Of a stretch of DNA of 41,809 bases, positions 33,757 to 40,796 are shown piece after piece. The stretch comes from Peptococcaceae bacterium. Its GTDB lineage: Bacteria; Bacillota; Peptococcia; DRI-13; PHAD01. Every line of letters starts with the position of its first letter. The stretch's first letter is position 1. Location: contig JANLFJ010000029.1 in assembly GCA_024655825.1 (NCBI GenBank), forward strand, positions 1 through 41,809. The letters run 5' to 3'. Made by a program: the position numbers and the translations under genes. Under the pieces are notes generated by a model. It was not told where the DNA came from and did no database searches. It saw nothing but the letters and a program-made list of their open reading frames with translations.

Positions 33757-34590
33757 ATGGCAAAGGGGAAGCTGGTTGCGCCGGTGCTGAAATGGGCCGG
33801 CGGAAAGAGGCAGGTATTAAAACACATCAAAAAGTACGTTCCAAAATCCTTTTCTGTTTATTATGAACCTTTCCTGGGCGGCGGCGCCCTGTTATTTGAA
33901 CTGCAGCCCCAGGAAGCGGTGGTCAATGACATCAACGGCGAATTGATAAATATTTACAGGGTTATAAAGGACAGTGTCGGGGAATTGATCGAAGACCTTA
34001 AGCGGCACCGGAACGGAGAGGAATACTTTTACCGGCTCAGGGAACAGGACCGTGACCGGGAACAGTATGAAAGATTGACCGCCGTCCAGAAAGCATCGAG
34101 GATAATTTACCTCAACAAGACATGCTACAACGGGCTGTTCAGGGTCAACAAAGCCGGAGAATTCAACACGCCCTTTGGGGGCTACACGCATCCCAATATC
34201 GTCAATGAAGCCGTCTTAAGGGCGGTGAGCGATTATTTCAACAAGGCCAGGATCACCTTTACCAGCTTGGATTTTGAAGACGCGTTAAAGGATGTGAAAA
34301 GCGGCGCCTTTGTGTACCTTGATCCTCCGTACGACCCGGTTTCGGATACCGCAAGCTTCACAGGATACGATAAGGGCGGGTTCGACCGGTACGAGCAAAA
34401 GAGGCTGAAAAAAACGTGCGACCGGCTCAATGAAAAAGGCGTAAAGTTCATCCTTTCCAATTCGGCCACCGGCTTTATCAAGGACCTTTACAAAAACTAC
34501 AAAATCATCGTGATAAACGCGAAAAGGCCGGTCAATTCCCGCGCTGATAAACGCGGTGAAATTGACGAGGTGCTGGTGATGAATTATTGA
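33757..34590 (+). CDS. Dam-family DNA adenine methylase (class D12, M.DpnII-like)
   Basis: A 277-residue N6-adenine methyltransferase. It opens VLKWAGGKRQVLKHI and has the SAM-binding YEPFLGGGALLF, NDINGELINIYRVI, NKTCYNGLFRVNKAGEFN and the catalytic DPPY in FVYLDPPYDPV. The order is that of the alpha group, whose members mostly modify GATC. No restriction endonuclease gene is next to it, so it is probably solitary and could have a regulatory role, or belong to a decayed restriction or phage module. ATG start with GAGGG upstream. Confidence 0.93.
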   Translation: MAKGKLVAPVLKWAGGKRQVLKHIKKYVPKSFSVYYEPFLGGGALLFELQPQEAVVNDINGELINIYRVIKDSVGELIEDLKRHRNGEEYFYRLREQDRDREQYERLTAVQKASRIIYLNKTCYNGLFRVNKAGEFNTPFGGYTHPNIVNEAVLRAVSDYFNKARITFTSLDFEDALKDVKSGAFVYLDPPYDPVSDTASFTGYDKGGFDRYEQKRLKKTCDRLNEKGVKFILSNSATGFIKDLYKNYKIIVINAKRPVNSRADKRGEIDEVLVMNY

Positions 34591-34764: not shown

Positions 34765-35091
34765 TTATTCTTTCTCTTCATTCCGGTTTTTATATACTAT
34801 GGCGGGGCTAGATAATCCCCGGTAGCAGTGAATATGAGCTTTGACGAAAGTTGTATATCCCATTAGTTCATGGATATGGCCACCGGCAATAGCAATTGCA
34901 GGTCCTGTTATTCCAACGAAATTGTGAACGTGTCCTAAATCTTGAGATGTTGTGCCTGTATAATAGTGGACATGTTGATCTAATCCGCCCGGATCAGCAG
35001 ATGTTGCTCCACGCATGCAGTGAGTATGGGCTAATTCCAAGGAAGTTCGAGTATCATAATCATGAAAATGGGCTGGTTCCATTTCAGCCAT
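34765..35091 (-). CDS. YmaF-family histidine-repeat protein
   Basis: A 108-residue protein of six His-x-His units (HFH, HTH, HVH, HVH, HIH, HIH), spaced 14-19 residues apart and each followed by an aromatic/Gly/Thr patch. This is the pattern of the YmaF family of unknown function. Regular His pairs suggest metal binding or stacking in a beta-repeat fold; this is an inference. No signal peptide is visible. ATG follows a GGGGGG ribosome site, and a promoter on the same strand lies just upstream. It stands alone at the left edge of the accessory region. Confidence 0.75.
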   Translation of the reverse strand: MAEMEPAHFHDYDTRTSLELAHTHCMRGATSADPGGLDQHVHYYTGTTSQDLGHVHNFVGITGPAIAIAGGHIHELMGYTTFVKAHIHCYRGLSSPAIVYKNRNEEKE

Positions 35092-35334: not shown

Positions 35335-35434
35335 TTTAAATATTATGTAGTGAAATATGGTCTAAAATGGTAAAATAAAGTATGAAAGAGCATAAAAAGC
35401 TATAACTTATATGTTGTTTTTTTATTTATATGTA

Positions 35435-35463
35435 TTGTCATTATAACTTATGGGTAATATAAT
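35435..35463 (+). promoter_or_regulatory. Promoter of the HigB-HigA-SecB-like operon
   Basis: TTGTCA (35435-35440) and TATAAT (35458-35463) are 17 bases apart. The start site would be near 35470, only about ten bases before the coding start, so the GAGGT ribosome site sits at the very 5' end of the message. Autoregulation by the HigA-like protein is likely, but no clear operator palindrome was seen. Confidence 0.65.
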
Positions 35464-35480
35464 ATTAGTGAGGTCTACTA

Positions 35481-35894
35481 ATGGAAAACATCAAAAACAT
35501 TGTATATCCAGAAGAATTCCGCAGCGGATATATTAAGGAACATTGGGACTATAAAAAAGACCTCGAAGACATTTTAGAAAAAAGTGGTTTAATAAATAGT
35601 TTTAGTGGAGTATATAAACAGAGGTTGAAATGGCTGGAAGAAAACAAAGAAGACAGTATAAAAAGGAATAAATGGTTTGAGAAGCTTAAACGAGCTCCTG
35701 ACCTATATTCAATGAAATTCGAAAGAACTGCTAAAAATATTAGGATTCTTTATGCTTTTGTTTCTTATGGTAAAGAAATAAAAGCCGTATTATTATACCC
35801 TTTTGAAGAAAAAGAAGATACAAAAAGGGGACAGAAAAGTTATTCTTGTGCTATAGAAATTGCTCAAAGAAGACTAAAGGAGGTTAAAGGATGA
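35481..35894 (+). CDS. HigB-like (RelE superfamily, Gp49 type) toxin
   Basis: A 137-residue toxin. The central part KQRLKWLEENKEDSIKRNKWFEKLKRAPDLYSMKFERTAKNIRILYAFV resembles the phage-derived Gp49-like/HigB toxin pattern, in which short RelE-fold proteins cut mRNA on ribosomes. The sequence continues with a basic C terminus (AIEIAQRRLKEVKG). It precedes its antitoxin, the reverse order typical of hig loci, and overlaps it by four bases. Base composition is strongly A/T-rich against the arg region. Confidence 0.78.
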   Translation: MENIKNIVYPEEFRSGYIKEHWDYKKDLEDILEKSGLINSFSGVYKQRLKWLEENKEDSIKRNKWFEKLKRAPDLYSMKFERTAKNIRILYAFVSYGKEIKAVLLYPFEEKEDTKRGQKSYSCAIEIAQRRLKEVKG

Positions 35895-36262
35895 TTGATT
35901 TTAATAACTTGCCCGATGCATGGGCTACGGTAGAAACAATATTTAGCGGGAAAGAGAATAGTGATAGTTTATATGATATTTATTATCAGATATCATCTGC
36001 AATTTTTAGATATCGGGAAAAATATAATATGTCACAAAAACAATTAGCAGAAAAGCTTGGGGTTACTCAAGCGATGGTGTCAAAACTTGAAAGCGGAGAT
36101 TATAATTATACGATTGAGCAGCTTTGGAAAGTAGCAACAAAGCTCAATTTTGATCTTGCTATTAAATTTGCAGAGAAAGAGGAAGACTCATTAATGACAG
36201 TATTTAACAATGATCAGGGTCCTACTATTGATAATGAACCTGTTTTTTCGGTGGCAGCATGA
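35891..36262 (+). CDS. HigA-like antitoxin with Xre helix-turn-helix and extended C-terminal tail
   Basis: A 123-residue antitoxin. The helix-turn-helix is at about residues 46-75 (MSQKQLAEKLGVTQAMVSKLESGDYNYTIEQL). The N-terminal 40 residues may neutralise the toxin. The last 28 residues (from about 96) are acidic and then moderately hydrophobic (TVFNNDQGPTIDNEPVFSVAA). Extensions of this kind act as chaperone-addiction sequences in TAC systems. It overlaps both neighbours by four bases each. Confidence 0.82.
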   Translation: MIDFNNLPDAWATVETIFSGKENSDSLYDIYYQISSAIFRYREKYNMSQKQLAEKLGVTQAMVSKLESGDYNYTIEQLWKVATKLNFDLAIKFAEKEEDSLMTVFNNDQGPTIDNEPVFSVAA

Positions 36263-36720
36263 ATACAAAAGAGATAAGCGCTGATTTTCAATTTCTTGGA
36301 AATAGGGTCTGTAAGTTCAAACTGGAAACATTCCCTATTAATGTTAGGGAAAAAGCTGAAGTTAATTTTGAGATTGATTACAAAATTGGGGATATAAGTG
36401 AGGAAAATAATACACTAATCGGACGTATTGTATTAAAGGAACAAATAAAAGCAACAGTAAAGAAAAAGACGCTATATAAGTGCCAGGTTGAAGTAGAAGG
36501 AGTATTTGCCGGAAACCCTGAGGTTCTAAATCGTGAAAAATTTAAAAAAATGGTAGAGCTTAATGGGTTGGTGACCCTTTTTCATATTTTAAGAGCATAT
36601 TTAATAGGTGTGTCTGCACAATCTGGTATTAATCCCCCCATTAAGACGCCCATGATAAATGTAATGAAGATTATTGAAGCAAAAAGTAGTATGGTTTCGC
36701 CACAAAAAGGAGAAAGTTAG
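36259..36720 (+). CDS. SecB-like chaperone of a toxin-antitoxin-chaperone operon
   Basis: A 153-residue protein resembling SecB. Beta-rich segments (CKFKLETFPINVREKAEVNFEIDY, TLIGRIVLKEQIKATVKKK, YKCQVEVEGVF) are followed by a C-terminal helix region, LNGLVTLFHILRAYLIGVSAQSG then PPIKTPMINVMKI. The last part matches the SecB end (a helix, then x-PP-x-x-x-P-x-x-N). Firmicutes generally lack housekeeping SecB, so a SecB homologue directly coupled (ATGA overlap) to HigA suggests a TAC system like Mycobacterium HigBA-Rv1957, where the chaperone protects the antitoxin. Based on pattern recognition, not an alignment. Confidence 0.75.
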   Translation: MNTKEISADFQFLGNRVCKFKLETFPINVREKAEVNFEIDYKIGDISEENNTLIGRIVLKEQIKATVKKKTLYKCQVEVEGVFAGNPEVLNREKFKKMVELNGLVTLFHILRAYLIGVSAQSGINPPIKTPMINVMKIIEAKSSMVSPQKGES

Positions 36721-36748: not shown

Positions 36749-37612
36749 ATGAGCCAAGATGATTCATTTTTTGAGCAGATTCTGGCACTTCATGAGTTCG
36801 TACCAACCGACGATAATCAGTTCTTTTATACCCGGGAAGGCCGGGTGGCACAACGACGTTTCATCTTCTCATTTGACGTTTCCCGTTTTTTTGAGGATAT
36901 TGCTTCACGGGAGCAACGGATTGCGAAAGTTATGGCTTGGATTGCTGAGCAAAATGCCAAACTAGCTTTAGCCAAGAAATCACGCCAAAAGGAATTGCTG
37001 GAACGCGATGTACATAAAATGCTATCCAAACACAAACTCAAGTCATTGGTGAACGTAACTATTACACCCATTGAGGTAGAAGTGAGCAAAATAGACGGCT
37101 CAATTCGAATAGTCCATTCGTTTCAGTTATCGGCGGAAATTGATAAAACTAGGGAAAGAAAAATCCGACGATTAGATGGTATGACTTGTTTTATTACCAA
37201 CGATTTAACGATTCCTCAAGCCCAGATCATTCAGAAATACAGAGAGAAAAACAAAATAGAAGAGGCATTTCGGGAAATGAAGTCCCAGTTGTCCTTAAGG
37301 CCGATTCATTTAACTCGTCCCGAACGGGTCAAGGCCCATGTCACCATTTGCATTTTAGCTTATCTACTACTAAATACGATGGAGATAATTCTCAAGAGGA
37401 CTGGACATTCAATATCCCCTATCGACGTTTTGAAAAAAGTGCAAACCTGCCAGTTAAATCGAGTAGGCATTAAAGGCTCAACCAGTTATTCTCTAACCGT
37501 AACACAAATGACGGAGCAACAAGTAGAGTGGACAAAACTGTTTCAATGTGAATACCTGTTGAATCCAAAGGTTATAAAACAGATAACAAAATTCCTGGAA
37601 AATGCGCTGTAG
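36749..37612 (+). pseudogene. Truncated IS1634/IS4-type transposase (C-terminal half)
   Basis: 287 codons that match the second half of an IS1634-family DDE transposase. The third catalytic residue with its signature is visible in YREKNKIEEAFREMKSQL (Y-x2-K-x3-E...K type), followed by RPIHLTRPERVKAHVTICILAYLLLNTMEI. Full transposases are about 550 residues; the part with the first two Asp is missing, so this cannot move by itself. Open frame extends back only to 36728. The ATG is incidental. T-rich sequence after the stop (up to about 37692) probably includes the right end of the element. Confidence 0.8.
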
Positions 37613-37848
37613 TGACAAAATCAATATTGTTCTATGGCTCAATACCTTGCTACATCTAATGTTGGAAATTTTTTACGCCAAACTTGGGTTCTAAGGAAAA
37701 TGAACAGCTAAACGTGAAGAGCCGGTACCCCAGGGTAACCGACTCTTTTCTTTGCCGCAAGCCATTTGATGAAAGGACGGACTGATAGACTGACGGACGT
37801 AGTCCAAATTAATCTGCTTATTCCAGTCCAGAATAAAGAGATTGCTAA
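37613..37848. other. Intergenic stretch after the IS1634-type remnant
   Basis: It contains probable IS end sequence up to about 37692, a terminator (37717-37747) and then about 100 bases with nothing recognised before the integrase fragment. Confidence 0.4.
37717..37750 (+). terminator. Terminator between IS remnant and integrase fragment
   Basis: AAGAG and CGGTACCC pair with GGGTAACCG and CTCTT around CA, with one mismatch and one bulged A; the right side continues TTTTC-TTT. Confidence 0.65.
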
Positions 37849-38401
37849 CAGTATCTTTCTGAGGATGCAACAAGAATTCCACGGAAAAAGGAAGTACGCA
37901 AAAAAGTAAAAGGGATGAGCAAAAAAGCAGTACAGGTATTGTTATCAGTTCCGGATTTATCCACAAAAGCAGGGCGAAGGGATCTAGCACTTATGATTAT
38001 CATATACAGCACTGCCGCCAGAATGGATGAAATCCTGTCTTTAAAAACAGAACAACTGCATTTGGATGCGGAAAAGCCGAATGTCACCATCATTGGAAAG
38101 GGAAGCAAAATAAGAACCCTGCATCTTCTACCTAAGGCAGTTGCACATTTAAAGAAATACCTGAAAGAATTTCATGGTGATACTCCAAATCCGGAAGCTT
38201 ATGTTTTTTATTCAAGGAATACCGGGTCACATGGAAAGATGAGTCAGACTGCAGTAAACAAGCAACTGAAAAAACATGCCAGAGCCGCACATGAAATGTG
38301 TGATGAAGTGCGACGGGATCTTCATGCTCATCAGCTGAGGCATGCCAAGGCCTCCCACTGGTTGGAAGACGGCATGAATATCGTACAGATTTCATTTCTG
38401 T
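37849..38401 (+). pseudogene. Tyrosine recombinase/integrase fragment cut by IS66
   Basis: Reading frame open from 37849. Recognisable catalytic residues are Arg in YSTAARMDEILSL, Lys in IIGKGSKIRTLHL and HQLRH (His-x-x-Arg) in DLHAHQLRHAKASHWLEDG. The frame then reads NIVQISFL and at once enters the IS66 left end; the last part with LLGH and the nucleophile Tyr is gone. The N-terminal SAM-like domain is also missing (only about 20 residues before the ATG at 37915 look related, RIPRKKEVRKKVKG). The C-terminal continuation is not found after the right end of IS66. Confidence 0.82.
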
Positions 38402-38425
38402 GTAAGCGTCAAACCGTACCCACCT
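38402..38425 (+). repeat. IS66 left inverted repeat
   Basis: Starts GTAAGCGTCAAAC and ends CCCACCT. It matches the right end (40826-40849, read on the other strand) at all of the first eight and last six bases with a few differences between. Confidence 0.88.
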
Positions 38426-38486
38426 GGTTGGATTCCCGAGAATATAAGATAATCTTCCTCAGAACACGAAATGAGGAGGATTTTTT

Positions 38487-38810
38487 ATGCCGAAAACAGA
38501 ACTGCAAAAAGAATGGGAGATTAGGATTGCCGAATATCGAGCCAGCGGACAGACAGCAAAAGAATGGTGCGCAGCCCATAATGTAACGCCCAGGCAATTA
38601 TGGTACTGGCTGCGGAAATTTAAGAACAAGGAAGATGCTTCCCCCGTTAAGCCGACCCGGTGGCTGCCGGTAGAAGTATGTGAGCAGGTATCCATGGAGC
38701 AAAGCAATGCCTTATTGGTTAAAGTGGGACAGGCTGGCATCGAGGTACGGCCCGGCTTTGATCCGGCCCTGCTCTCACAGGTCGTGCGCATACTGACAAC
38801 GTTATGCTAA
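38487..38810 (+). CDS. tnpA: IS66 accessory protein TnpA
   Basis: A 107-residue helix-turn-helix-like protein, with the family start EWEIRIAEYRASGQTAKEWCAAHNVTPRQLWYWLRKF. It is needed with TnpB for IS66 transposition and probably binds DNA. It overlaps tnpB by seven bases, as is common in IS66. ATG start behind GAGGA. Confidence 0.92.
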   Translation: MPKTELQKEWEIRIAEYRASGQTAKEWCAAHNVTPRQLWYWLRKFKNKEDASPVKPTRWLPVEVCEQVSMEQSNALLVKVGQAGIEVRPGFDPALLSQVVRILTTLC

Positions 38811-39157
38811 ACGCAGGTGTTGAGCGGGTTTATCTCGCCTGCGGCGCCACCGATTTGCGCAAGTCCATTGACGGGCTGGCGGTACTCGTGAAGGAAGTAT
38901 TCAAACTGGACCCGTTTTCCCCGTGTCTGTTTGTTTTTTGCAATCGCCAGCGCGACAAGCTCAAAATTCTCCAGTGGGACCACAATGGTTTTTGGCTCCA
39001 TTATCGCCGGCTGGAGCGAGGAAAATTTCCTTGGCCGATGGAAACCGGTTCGAATACTGTGACGATTAGCCCCCGGCAGTTGCGCTGGTTGCTCGACGGT
39101 CTCTCCTTAAAGCAGCCCCAAGCGCATCCTGAGGTGAAAGCACGCATCATCTTGTAA
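38804..39157 (+). CDS. tnpB: IS66 accessory protein TnpB (Orf2)
   Basis: A 117-residue protein of the IS66 Orf2 family: VYLACGATDLRKSIDGLAVLV, FVFCNRQRDKLKILQWDHNGFWLHYRRLERGKFPWP and ISPRQLRWLLDGL are the family blocks. Unrelated to the RNA-guided TnpB of IS200/IS605 despite the name. Full length. Confidence 0.94.
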   Translation: MLNAGVERVYLACGATDLRKSIDGLAVLVKEVFKLDPFSPCLFVFCNRQRDKLKILQWDHNGFWLHYRRLERGKFPWPMETGSNTVTISPRQLRWLLDGLSLKQPQAHPEVKARIIL

Positions 39158-39227
39158 AGGACAATATTTTTTTAGTCCCGTGGTTCATTTTGGAGGAAAT
39201 GGCTGTAATTTGTCGAATAGCTAAAAT

Positions 39228-40796
39228 ATGAACAGCACATCGAATGTTGCCGCAATGACCATAGAAGAACTGCAAAAGCGCTGTGTTCAACTGGAACGGG
39301 AAAATGCTGAACTGACCGCGAAGCTGAACTGGTTTATGGAGCAGTTTCGCTTAATTAAACACCGGCAGTTTGGTGTTTCCAGCGAACGGATCGAACAGCA
39401 GCAGCTTTTTCTTTTTAATGAGGCGGAAGCGGAAGCCCGCCCGGTTCCGGTTGAGCCGACAGTGGAAACGATCACTTACCGGCGCCGCAAACAACGCGGC
39501 CACCGTGAGACAGTGCTTGAAAAGGTGCCGGTTGAAACGATCGAGTACCGCCTGCCGGTCGAAGAGCAGGTTTGCTCGTGCTGCGGCGGTCCTTTGCATG
39601 AAATGAGCACCGAGGTAAGGCAAGAACTTAAGGTTATTCCGGCCCAGGTGAAAGTGGTCAGGCATGTACGTTACGTTTATGCCTGCCGCCGTTGCGAGCG
39701 TGAGGATATAACAACGCCTATTGTCACGGCGCCGATGCCGGCTCCTGTGCTTCCCGGAAGTCTGGTGTCTCCTTCTCTTATGGCTTACATCATGAACCAA
39801 AAATATACAGAAGGATTGCCGCTGTACCGCCAGGAACAGCAATTTGCCAGTTTTGGCATCGAGTTGTCACGTCAGACGCTCGCCAACTGGGTGCTTTACG
39901 GGGCAAACAACTGGTTGGCTCCGGTTTACGACCGCTTGCATGAACATCTGCTCAAGAGGGATATCCTGCATGCCGACGAAACGACCCTGCAGGTCTTGCG
40001 CGAACCGGGCCGAGCCGCTGAAACGCAGTCATACTGCTGGCTTTATCGTACCGGGCGGGATGGGCCACCAATCATTCTTTACGAATACCAGACCACCCGG
40101 GCCAGTAAACACCCCCGCCGGTTTCTGTCAGGCTTCAAAGGCTATTTGCATGTTGACGGTTATGCCGGTTACAATGATCTGCCTGATATAACCCTGGTTG
40201 GCTGTTGGGCCCATGCCCGGCGCAAATTTGATGAGGCGCTGAAGGCCCTGCCGGATTCAAAACGCTCGGCAGGCGTGGCCGCCAAAGAGGGGCTGGAATT
40301 CTGCAATCGCCTCTTTGCCATTGAGCGCGACATAAAAGACGCTGCTCCGGATGAACGTTATAAAATCCGCCTGGTGCGCAGCCGACCCGTGCTGGATGCT
40401 TTTTTGGCATGGCTTAAAAGCCAAAAACCGCAAGTGCTTCCTAAAAGCTCCTTTGGTCAGGCAATCAAGTATTGCCTGAGCCAGTGGAACAAGCTCGAAG
40501 CCTTTTTGCAAGATGGGCGCTTGGAACTCGATAATAACCGCAGTGAACGCTCCATCAAGCCCTTTGTCATTGGTCGCAAGAATTGGCTCTTTGCCAACAC
40601 TCCCCGCGGAGCACAGGCCAGCGCCATTACATACAGCATTATAGAAACGGCTAAAGAGAATAGTCTGAGTCCCTTCCACTATCTTTGCTATCTTTTTGAG
40701 AAGCTTCCCAATATGGATATCAAAGACAAGAATGCCTTGGATAAGCTGCTCCCCTGGTCCGATTCTTTACCCCCTGTATGCCGGCTCATTAAATAA
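39228..40796 (+). CDS. tnpC: IS66 transposase TnpC
   Basis: A 522-residue DDE transposase. The N-terminal coiled coil ([19 protein letters not shown]) is followed by the zinc-finger-like [11 protein letters not shown] and a second Cys pair CRRCE, then the catalytic core: Asp in [11 protein letters not shown], Asp in [11 protein letters not shown] and Glu in [22 protein letters not shown]. Length and all three catalytic residues fit an active enzyme. ATG 71 bases after tnpB. Confidence 0.94.

Follow-up and report, generated by a model that had tools for sequence, protein, structure and literature searches.

What does a SecB-like protein do when its gene lies directly behind a toxin-antitoxin (TA) pair in a Gram-positive bacterium? 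The question is raised by three small genes on a 41,809-nucleotide contig of a Peptococcaceae bacterium (JANLFJ010000029.1; this whole stretch is called the window below), which an earlier note, made from the sequence alone, had read as a toxin-antitoxin-chaperone (TAC) operon. Using profile searches, structure prediction and a comparison of related loci, we consider it highly probable that the genes form a horizontally acquired HigBA-type TAC module whose chaperone guards the antitoxin. The premise that Firmicutes generally lack SecB holds only roughly, since the literature records SecB-like genes, frequently linked to TA genes, in Firmicutes and elsewhere beyond the Proteobacteria; TA linkage applies to about 7.5% of SecB genes, and to 63% of those outside the alpha-, beta- and gamma-Proteobacteria (PMC4257090). 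Because of these known Firmicute genes, the module is less unusual than had been implied (PMC4257090). TAC modules are a published class, also outside the Proteobacteria, and the window operon is a divergent member of it, with a host type, an operator layout and a Glu110 substitution of its own.

Operon layout and a predicted SecB fold for the chaperone

Three open reading frames of 137, 123 and 153 amino acids lie where the earlier note had placed them, on the forward strand: the gene for a Gp49/HigB-like toxin of RelE-type fold (35481-35894, behind a Shine-Dalgarno-like gagg at 35470-35473), that for a HigA-type HTH antitoxin (35891-36262, ggagg at 35879-35883) and that for the SecB-like chaperone (36259-36720). 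Both junctions are ATGA overlaps of four bases (35891-35894 and 36259-36262), as had been described, so that the chaperone start overlaps the antitoxin stop. Unlike the other two genes, the chaperone gene has no obvious Shine-Dalgarno sequence on reading, and it is probably translationally coupled. The proposed single promoter corresponds to a sigma-A-type promoter-like site, TTGTCA-17-TATAAT (35435-35463, forward strand), which matches at 11 of 12 positions and is the best of eight local hits, with 8.2 expected by chance at the lower threshold of the scan; overall, sites were no more numerous than in shuffles.

The chaperone scores under the curated cut-offs for SecB, both in Pfam (PF02556, E 0.0012, 19.2 bits against 26) and in the canonical export family TIGR00809 (14.2 bits against 102.8), and better against the PADLOC model of the CmdTAC chaperone, PD-T4-9_C (E 1.1e-6). 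PDB sequence searches with the chaperone, and with the A7 and A8 profiles, returned neither SecB nor HigB; only fold comparison found them. As the single-protein sequence evidence is weak for both toxin and chaperone, confirmation needed structure prediction and family alignments. Structure prediction, which had been set beforehand as the test that could overturn the SecB reading, gave a SecB fold: the AlphaFold2 model, built from 21 family members (pLDDT 87), shows four long strands followed by two helices. Its top Foldseek match in the PDB is the complex of Rv1957, the TAC chaperone of Mycobacterium tuberculosis (Mtb), with a ChAD peptide (5mtw, 1e-6), and E. coli SecB (1qyn, TM 0.73/0.82) and H. 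influenzae SecB are also among the best. The third protein, as modelled, thus has a SecB fold, at a very low sequence identity (11% to Rv1957 in the Foldseek alignment). The SecB-like proteins of five other loci (L004 and L019-L022) exceed the Pfam SecB cut-off and align with the window chaperone, which ties the family to SecB by sequence too. The PPIKTPMIN-type tail that had been singled out earlier is present at residues 126-134 and is conserved across the family.

In E. coli SecB, L75 and E77 are, we presume, SecA-contact residues. They align to Lys74 and Gln76 of the window chaperone; since the hhalign comparison of the family with a single E. coli SecB sequence is not significant (probability 0.7%), this difference is only suggestive.

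Toxin and antitoxin

The toxin scores E 0.0085 and 16.6 bits against Gp49/DUF891 (PF05973), under the gathering cut-off of 23.9, and its profile aligns with the type member, N15 gp49, at an hhalign E value of 1.2e-5. The predicted structure (pLDDT 82.5) has a RelE-type arrangement with a long C-terminal helix. Foldseek alone gave a weak match (E 0.026), and VIA-align ranked S. pneumoniae HigB (Z 12.8 over 107 residues) and the Mtb TAC toxin HigB1 (7nbu, third in the list; Z 11.8 over 103 residues) at the top, above other RelE/ParE toxins. The earlier description of this protein as HigB-like is borne out in the fold and its C-terminal helix, but not in the catalytic site, where the lysine position of characterised HigB toxins appears as Glu110.

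The catalytic residue of HigB1 is K95 (PMC9098466). Residues were mapped over a low-identity sequence bridge, from the toxin via N15 gp49 to HigB1 and S. pneumoniae HigB, without structure superposition; on this mapping HigB1 R68, R77 and F93 align with K79, R88 and F108 of the window toxin, Mtb HigB E66 falls on S77, and K95 (K92 in S. pneumoniae) would correspond to Glu110. Nearly all aligned intact toxins carry F-x-E-[K/R] at this site, where HigB has F-x-K. With the predicted departure from lysine to Glu110, ribonuclease activity of the toxin is not assured, and we regard the protein as a divergent Gp49/HigB-type toxin that probably stops growth.

The assignment of the antitoxin as HigA-like is upheld by an HTH_3 domain (Pfam, E 1.9e-14) and by its best PDB match in phmmer, S. 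pneumoniae HigA (6af3_B, E 4.8e-5), the partner of the HigB that best matches the toxin in structure; the match to the NCBIfam HigA model TIGR02607 (E 0.041) lies under its cut-off. Because the 97-residue S. pneumoniae HigA covers residues 9-97 of the window antitoxin, the last 26 residues (98-123; 36182-36259, forward strand) form an extension, which ends in VAA. Judged by sequence, this extension is a candidate chaperone-addiction (ChAD) tail, and its end a candidate ClpX-like degron. The ClpX degron of Mtb HigA1 is its Val-Ala end (PMC8165232), and CmdA of the CmdTAC system, which has LAA at its C-terminus, is broken down by ClpP once its chaperone is lost (PMC11618068). ClpX is encoded in the host genome. 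Among relatives the tail is variable, with one aromatic or hydrophobic position kept (W in many, F in the window antitoxin), and the ends (VAA, LAA, GEAA, LAVGS/A, EIA and others) consist of small, mostly hydrophobic residues.

How does this module compare with known systems? The Mtb TAC (HigB1-HigA1-SecB, Rv1955-1957) has the same toxin-antitoxin-chaperone order, a RelE-fold toxin with a C-terminal helix, an HTH antitoxin with a C-terminal extension and hydrophobic degron, and a SecB-fold chaperone. The window module differs in its monoderm spore-forming host, in Glu110 for the catalytic K95, in one or two ATAACTTATAAGTTAT operators and in its tail of about 26 residues, compared with a longer ChAD with two Trp motifs in Mtb. 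HigBAC of E. coli C496, likened here from its description in the literature, shares the toxin class and the three-gene logic, and its trigger is the lambda major tail protein (PMC11980606). CmdTAC (PD-T4-9), triggered by the T4 capsid protein (PMC11618068), likewise has a SecB-like third gene, but its toxin is an mRNA ADP-ribosyltransferase and its antitoxin is unrelated, whereas the window toxin has a predicted RelE-type fold, has no PADLOC match and gave no CmdT-type ADP-ribosyltransferase assignment. The closest solved toxin (by VIA-align) and antitoxin (by phmmer) are those of S. pneumoniae HigBA (6af3/6af4), whose HigA ends where the extra tail of the window antitoxin begins. We take S. 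pneumoniae HigBA to be a two-component system without a chaperone.

Operator, related loci and host

A scan of genome contigs yielded 24 related loci, in Syntrophomonas, Desulfosporosinus, Caldanaerobacter, Caloramator, Thermoanaerobacterium, Thermosediminibacter, Thermovorax and uncultured Clostridia. Antitoxin and chaperone genes keep their order in 22 of the 24, so the three-gene arrangement is far beyond chance; 21 of those 22 have a recognisable toxin frame, and in most loci the chaperone start overlaps the antitoxin by four bases. Six of these loci (L025, L031, L038, L040, L043 and L045) have a toxin frame that is broken or carries an internal deletion, next to open antitoxin and chaperone frames, which suggests that an intact toxin is costly; the support is only moderate, as assembly errors could account for some of the breaks and the search admitted only loci with a recognisable chaperone.

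In most loci checked, the -10 box before the toxin gene adjoins a palindrome that closely matches ATAACTTATAAGTTAT, and the TATAAT of this box is itself found in most relatives. Shuffled upstream regions rarely or never score as high. In the window, the proximal copy ATAACTTATGGGTAAT (35443-35458, forward strand) is a candidate operator between the -35 and -10 boxes and the only match with at most one mismatch in the 3.16-Mb host genome, in which the degenerate form of ATAACTTATAAGTTAT also occurs once. A distal operator-like copy, ATAACTTATATGTTGT (35402-35417, forward strand), matches ATAACTTATAAGTTAT at 14 of 16 positions; such a second copy, lying 39-42 bp before the proximal palindrome, is shared within the clade of the window and seen in the Syntrophomonas/Caldanaerobacter/Caloramator-type loci. 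Three loci that seemed to lack the palindrome (L041, L044 and L045) carry it inside an over-extended toxin frame, which places the true toxin start downstream. The peptide ITYKLYN in these frames is the translated palindrome, and toxin starts annotated from the longest frame would be too long. The most distant locus, L046, is the only one among those checked with no palindrome upstream. The natural reading of the layout is that the HTH antitoxin may autoregulate the operon through the palindrome. We found no description of this operator layout, or of an invariant Glu at the HigB catalytic lysine, in the literature on Firmicute TACs.

The host is a monoderm spore-former: its genome has Spo0A, the window holds a gerA-type germination operon, and neither LpxC nor Omp85 was found in the genome. 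The Gram-positive background assumed earlier is therefore supported, also by the absence of any other convincing SecB from the genome, where a possible second one (C46, 13.6 bits) fell below the cut-off. Nor does the host genome encode a toxin paralogue or another Gp49 protein. With LpxC, Omp85 and a further convincing SecB lacking, the chaperone is probably dedicated to the antitoxin.

Within the host's own class, only the host among 46 genomes has the family, one other carrying a distant CmdTAC-type chaperone, and a phylum-wide sample gave matches in 18 of 398 genomes, some of them only distant CmdTAC-type chaperones. Together with the GC content of the module (33%, compared with 54% over the window's first 33 kb) and with the transposase and integrase frames after it, this distribution points to horizontal acquisition. 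No relatives were found in viral contigs or plasmids, a phage collection held a single SecB-like match, weak and partial, and no match to the toxin, and the flanking genes of several relatives show no clear defence island beside the module.

A DDE transposase frame begins 28 nt past the chaperone stop and is followed by an integrase frame and an IS66 element (36749-38586 and 38487-40796); no terminator of the operon's own was seen before these frames. On the upstream flank, 33757-34590 and 34765-35091 (-), lie genes for a phage-type D12 class adenine methyltransferase and a YmaF-family protein, and the methylase gene and the module might share one mobile stretch.

Several further arrangements surfaced in the scan. 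More distant Firmicute SecB-like proteins (genes at L004:1492-1926, L019:1495-1926 and L022:1420-1881) sit in CmdTAC-like three-gene modules with matches to PADLOC PD-T4-9_A and _C, whose middle proteins have no Pfam family and end in GVA, GVAA or KVA. In L021, another of these distant loci, the middle protein of the three-gene layout ends in GAA and the upstream gene has no Pfam or PADLOC match, so that a TAC with an undescribed toxin is possible. Genome G243 carries a HigB-type TAC of the present family (L014) and a CmdTAC-like module (L022) about 12.7 kb apart, and in Thermoanaerobacterium butyriciformans (L036/L047) a decayed copy shares a contig with a fragment resembling SecB. Marinitoga camini virus 1 (KP836355, L048:1357-2791, UF08_53 to UF08_51) has genes for a ParE-like toxin, a weak-HTH protein and a SecB-like protein in a row, all annotated as hypothetical and adjoining an RnlB-antitoxin homologue; this row is possibly a phage-borne TAC module.

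Proposed mechanism and alternatives

How might the three proteins work together? At rest, the SecB-like chaperone would form a tetramer and bind the C-terminal tail of the antitoxin, protecting it against aggregation and against ClpXP, for which the VAA end would be the recognition signal. Once chaperoned, the antitoxin would neutralise the RelE-fold toxin and repress the operon via the promoter palindrome or palindromes. Should other clients titrate the chaperone, the likeliest being a phage structural protein or a surge of unfolded protein, the antitoxin would be degraded and the toxin freed to attack translation or mRNA, and growth would stop. The parts of this scheme that were computed are gene order, overlaps, predicted folds, HTH domain, tail, operators, family conservation, the lack of other SecB and outer-membrane markers in the host, and the presence of ClpX; chaperone dependence, ClpXP degradation, trigger and toxin target we infer by analogy with TAC systems already studied. 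Chaperone addiction via the antitoxin tail has been shown for examples from Mtb, Geobacter, Vibrio and Methylomonas (PMC5105189). The module probably serves against phages or stress.

Could the SecB-like protein instead serve chiefly in general chaperoning or export, its place behind a two-gene HigBA-type TA pair being coincidental and the antitoxin independent of it? Guarding an antitoxin need not preclude a general role, as the TAC chaperones examined to date retain the ability to complement E. coli secB (PMC5105189). As the main function, however, it seems improbable in a host with neither outer-membrane markers nor a solitary SecB, for a gene that follows the antitoxin directly, with the four-base overlap in most loci, and travels with both partners; the antitoxin tail, moreover, is absent from the two-component S. 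pneumoniae HigA, and Lys74 and Gln76 in place of SecB L75 and E77 are a weak further point, the profile alignment being non-significant. That the three genes are unrelated, form no TA system and encode no SecB is barely credible: the toxin and chaperone sequence scores do fall under curated cut-offs, but fold matches, the HTH domain and the conservation of operator and gene order speak against this reading, which the fold and synteny results refute.

A more serious challenge to a HigBA-type TAC module with a guarding chaperone concerns the toxin, which may have lost its activity with the catalytic lysine, the operon being kept as an autoregulated antitoxin-chaperone pair, or may use another chemistry or target. 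The near-invariant F-x-E-[K/R] in place of F-x-K, and S77 in place of Mtb HigB E66, fit such a change. We nonetheless think it unlikely, as Arg88 (HigB R77), Lys/Arg79 (R68) and Phe108 (F93) are retained, Glu110 and Arg88 are near-invariant, which speaks for selection and not decay, and the breakage of the toxin alone in six loci suggests that the intact protein is costly. A bolder proposal, doubtful but worth entertaining, is that these Firmicute modules form a clade of their own, in which an invariant Glu replaces the HigB catalytic lysine, the toxin cuts RNA by another chemistry or hits a different target, and the SecB-like protein plays no part in export in its hosts and serves solely to guard the antitoxin and sense phages.

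In conclusion, a monoderm host that lacks outer-membrane markers and any other convincing SecB makes it cleanly testable whether TAC chaperones need an export role, and concrete targets for mutation are at hand in the conserved operator, the short antitoxin tail and the exchanged catalytic residue.
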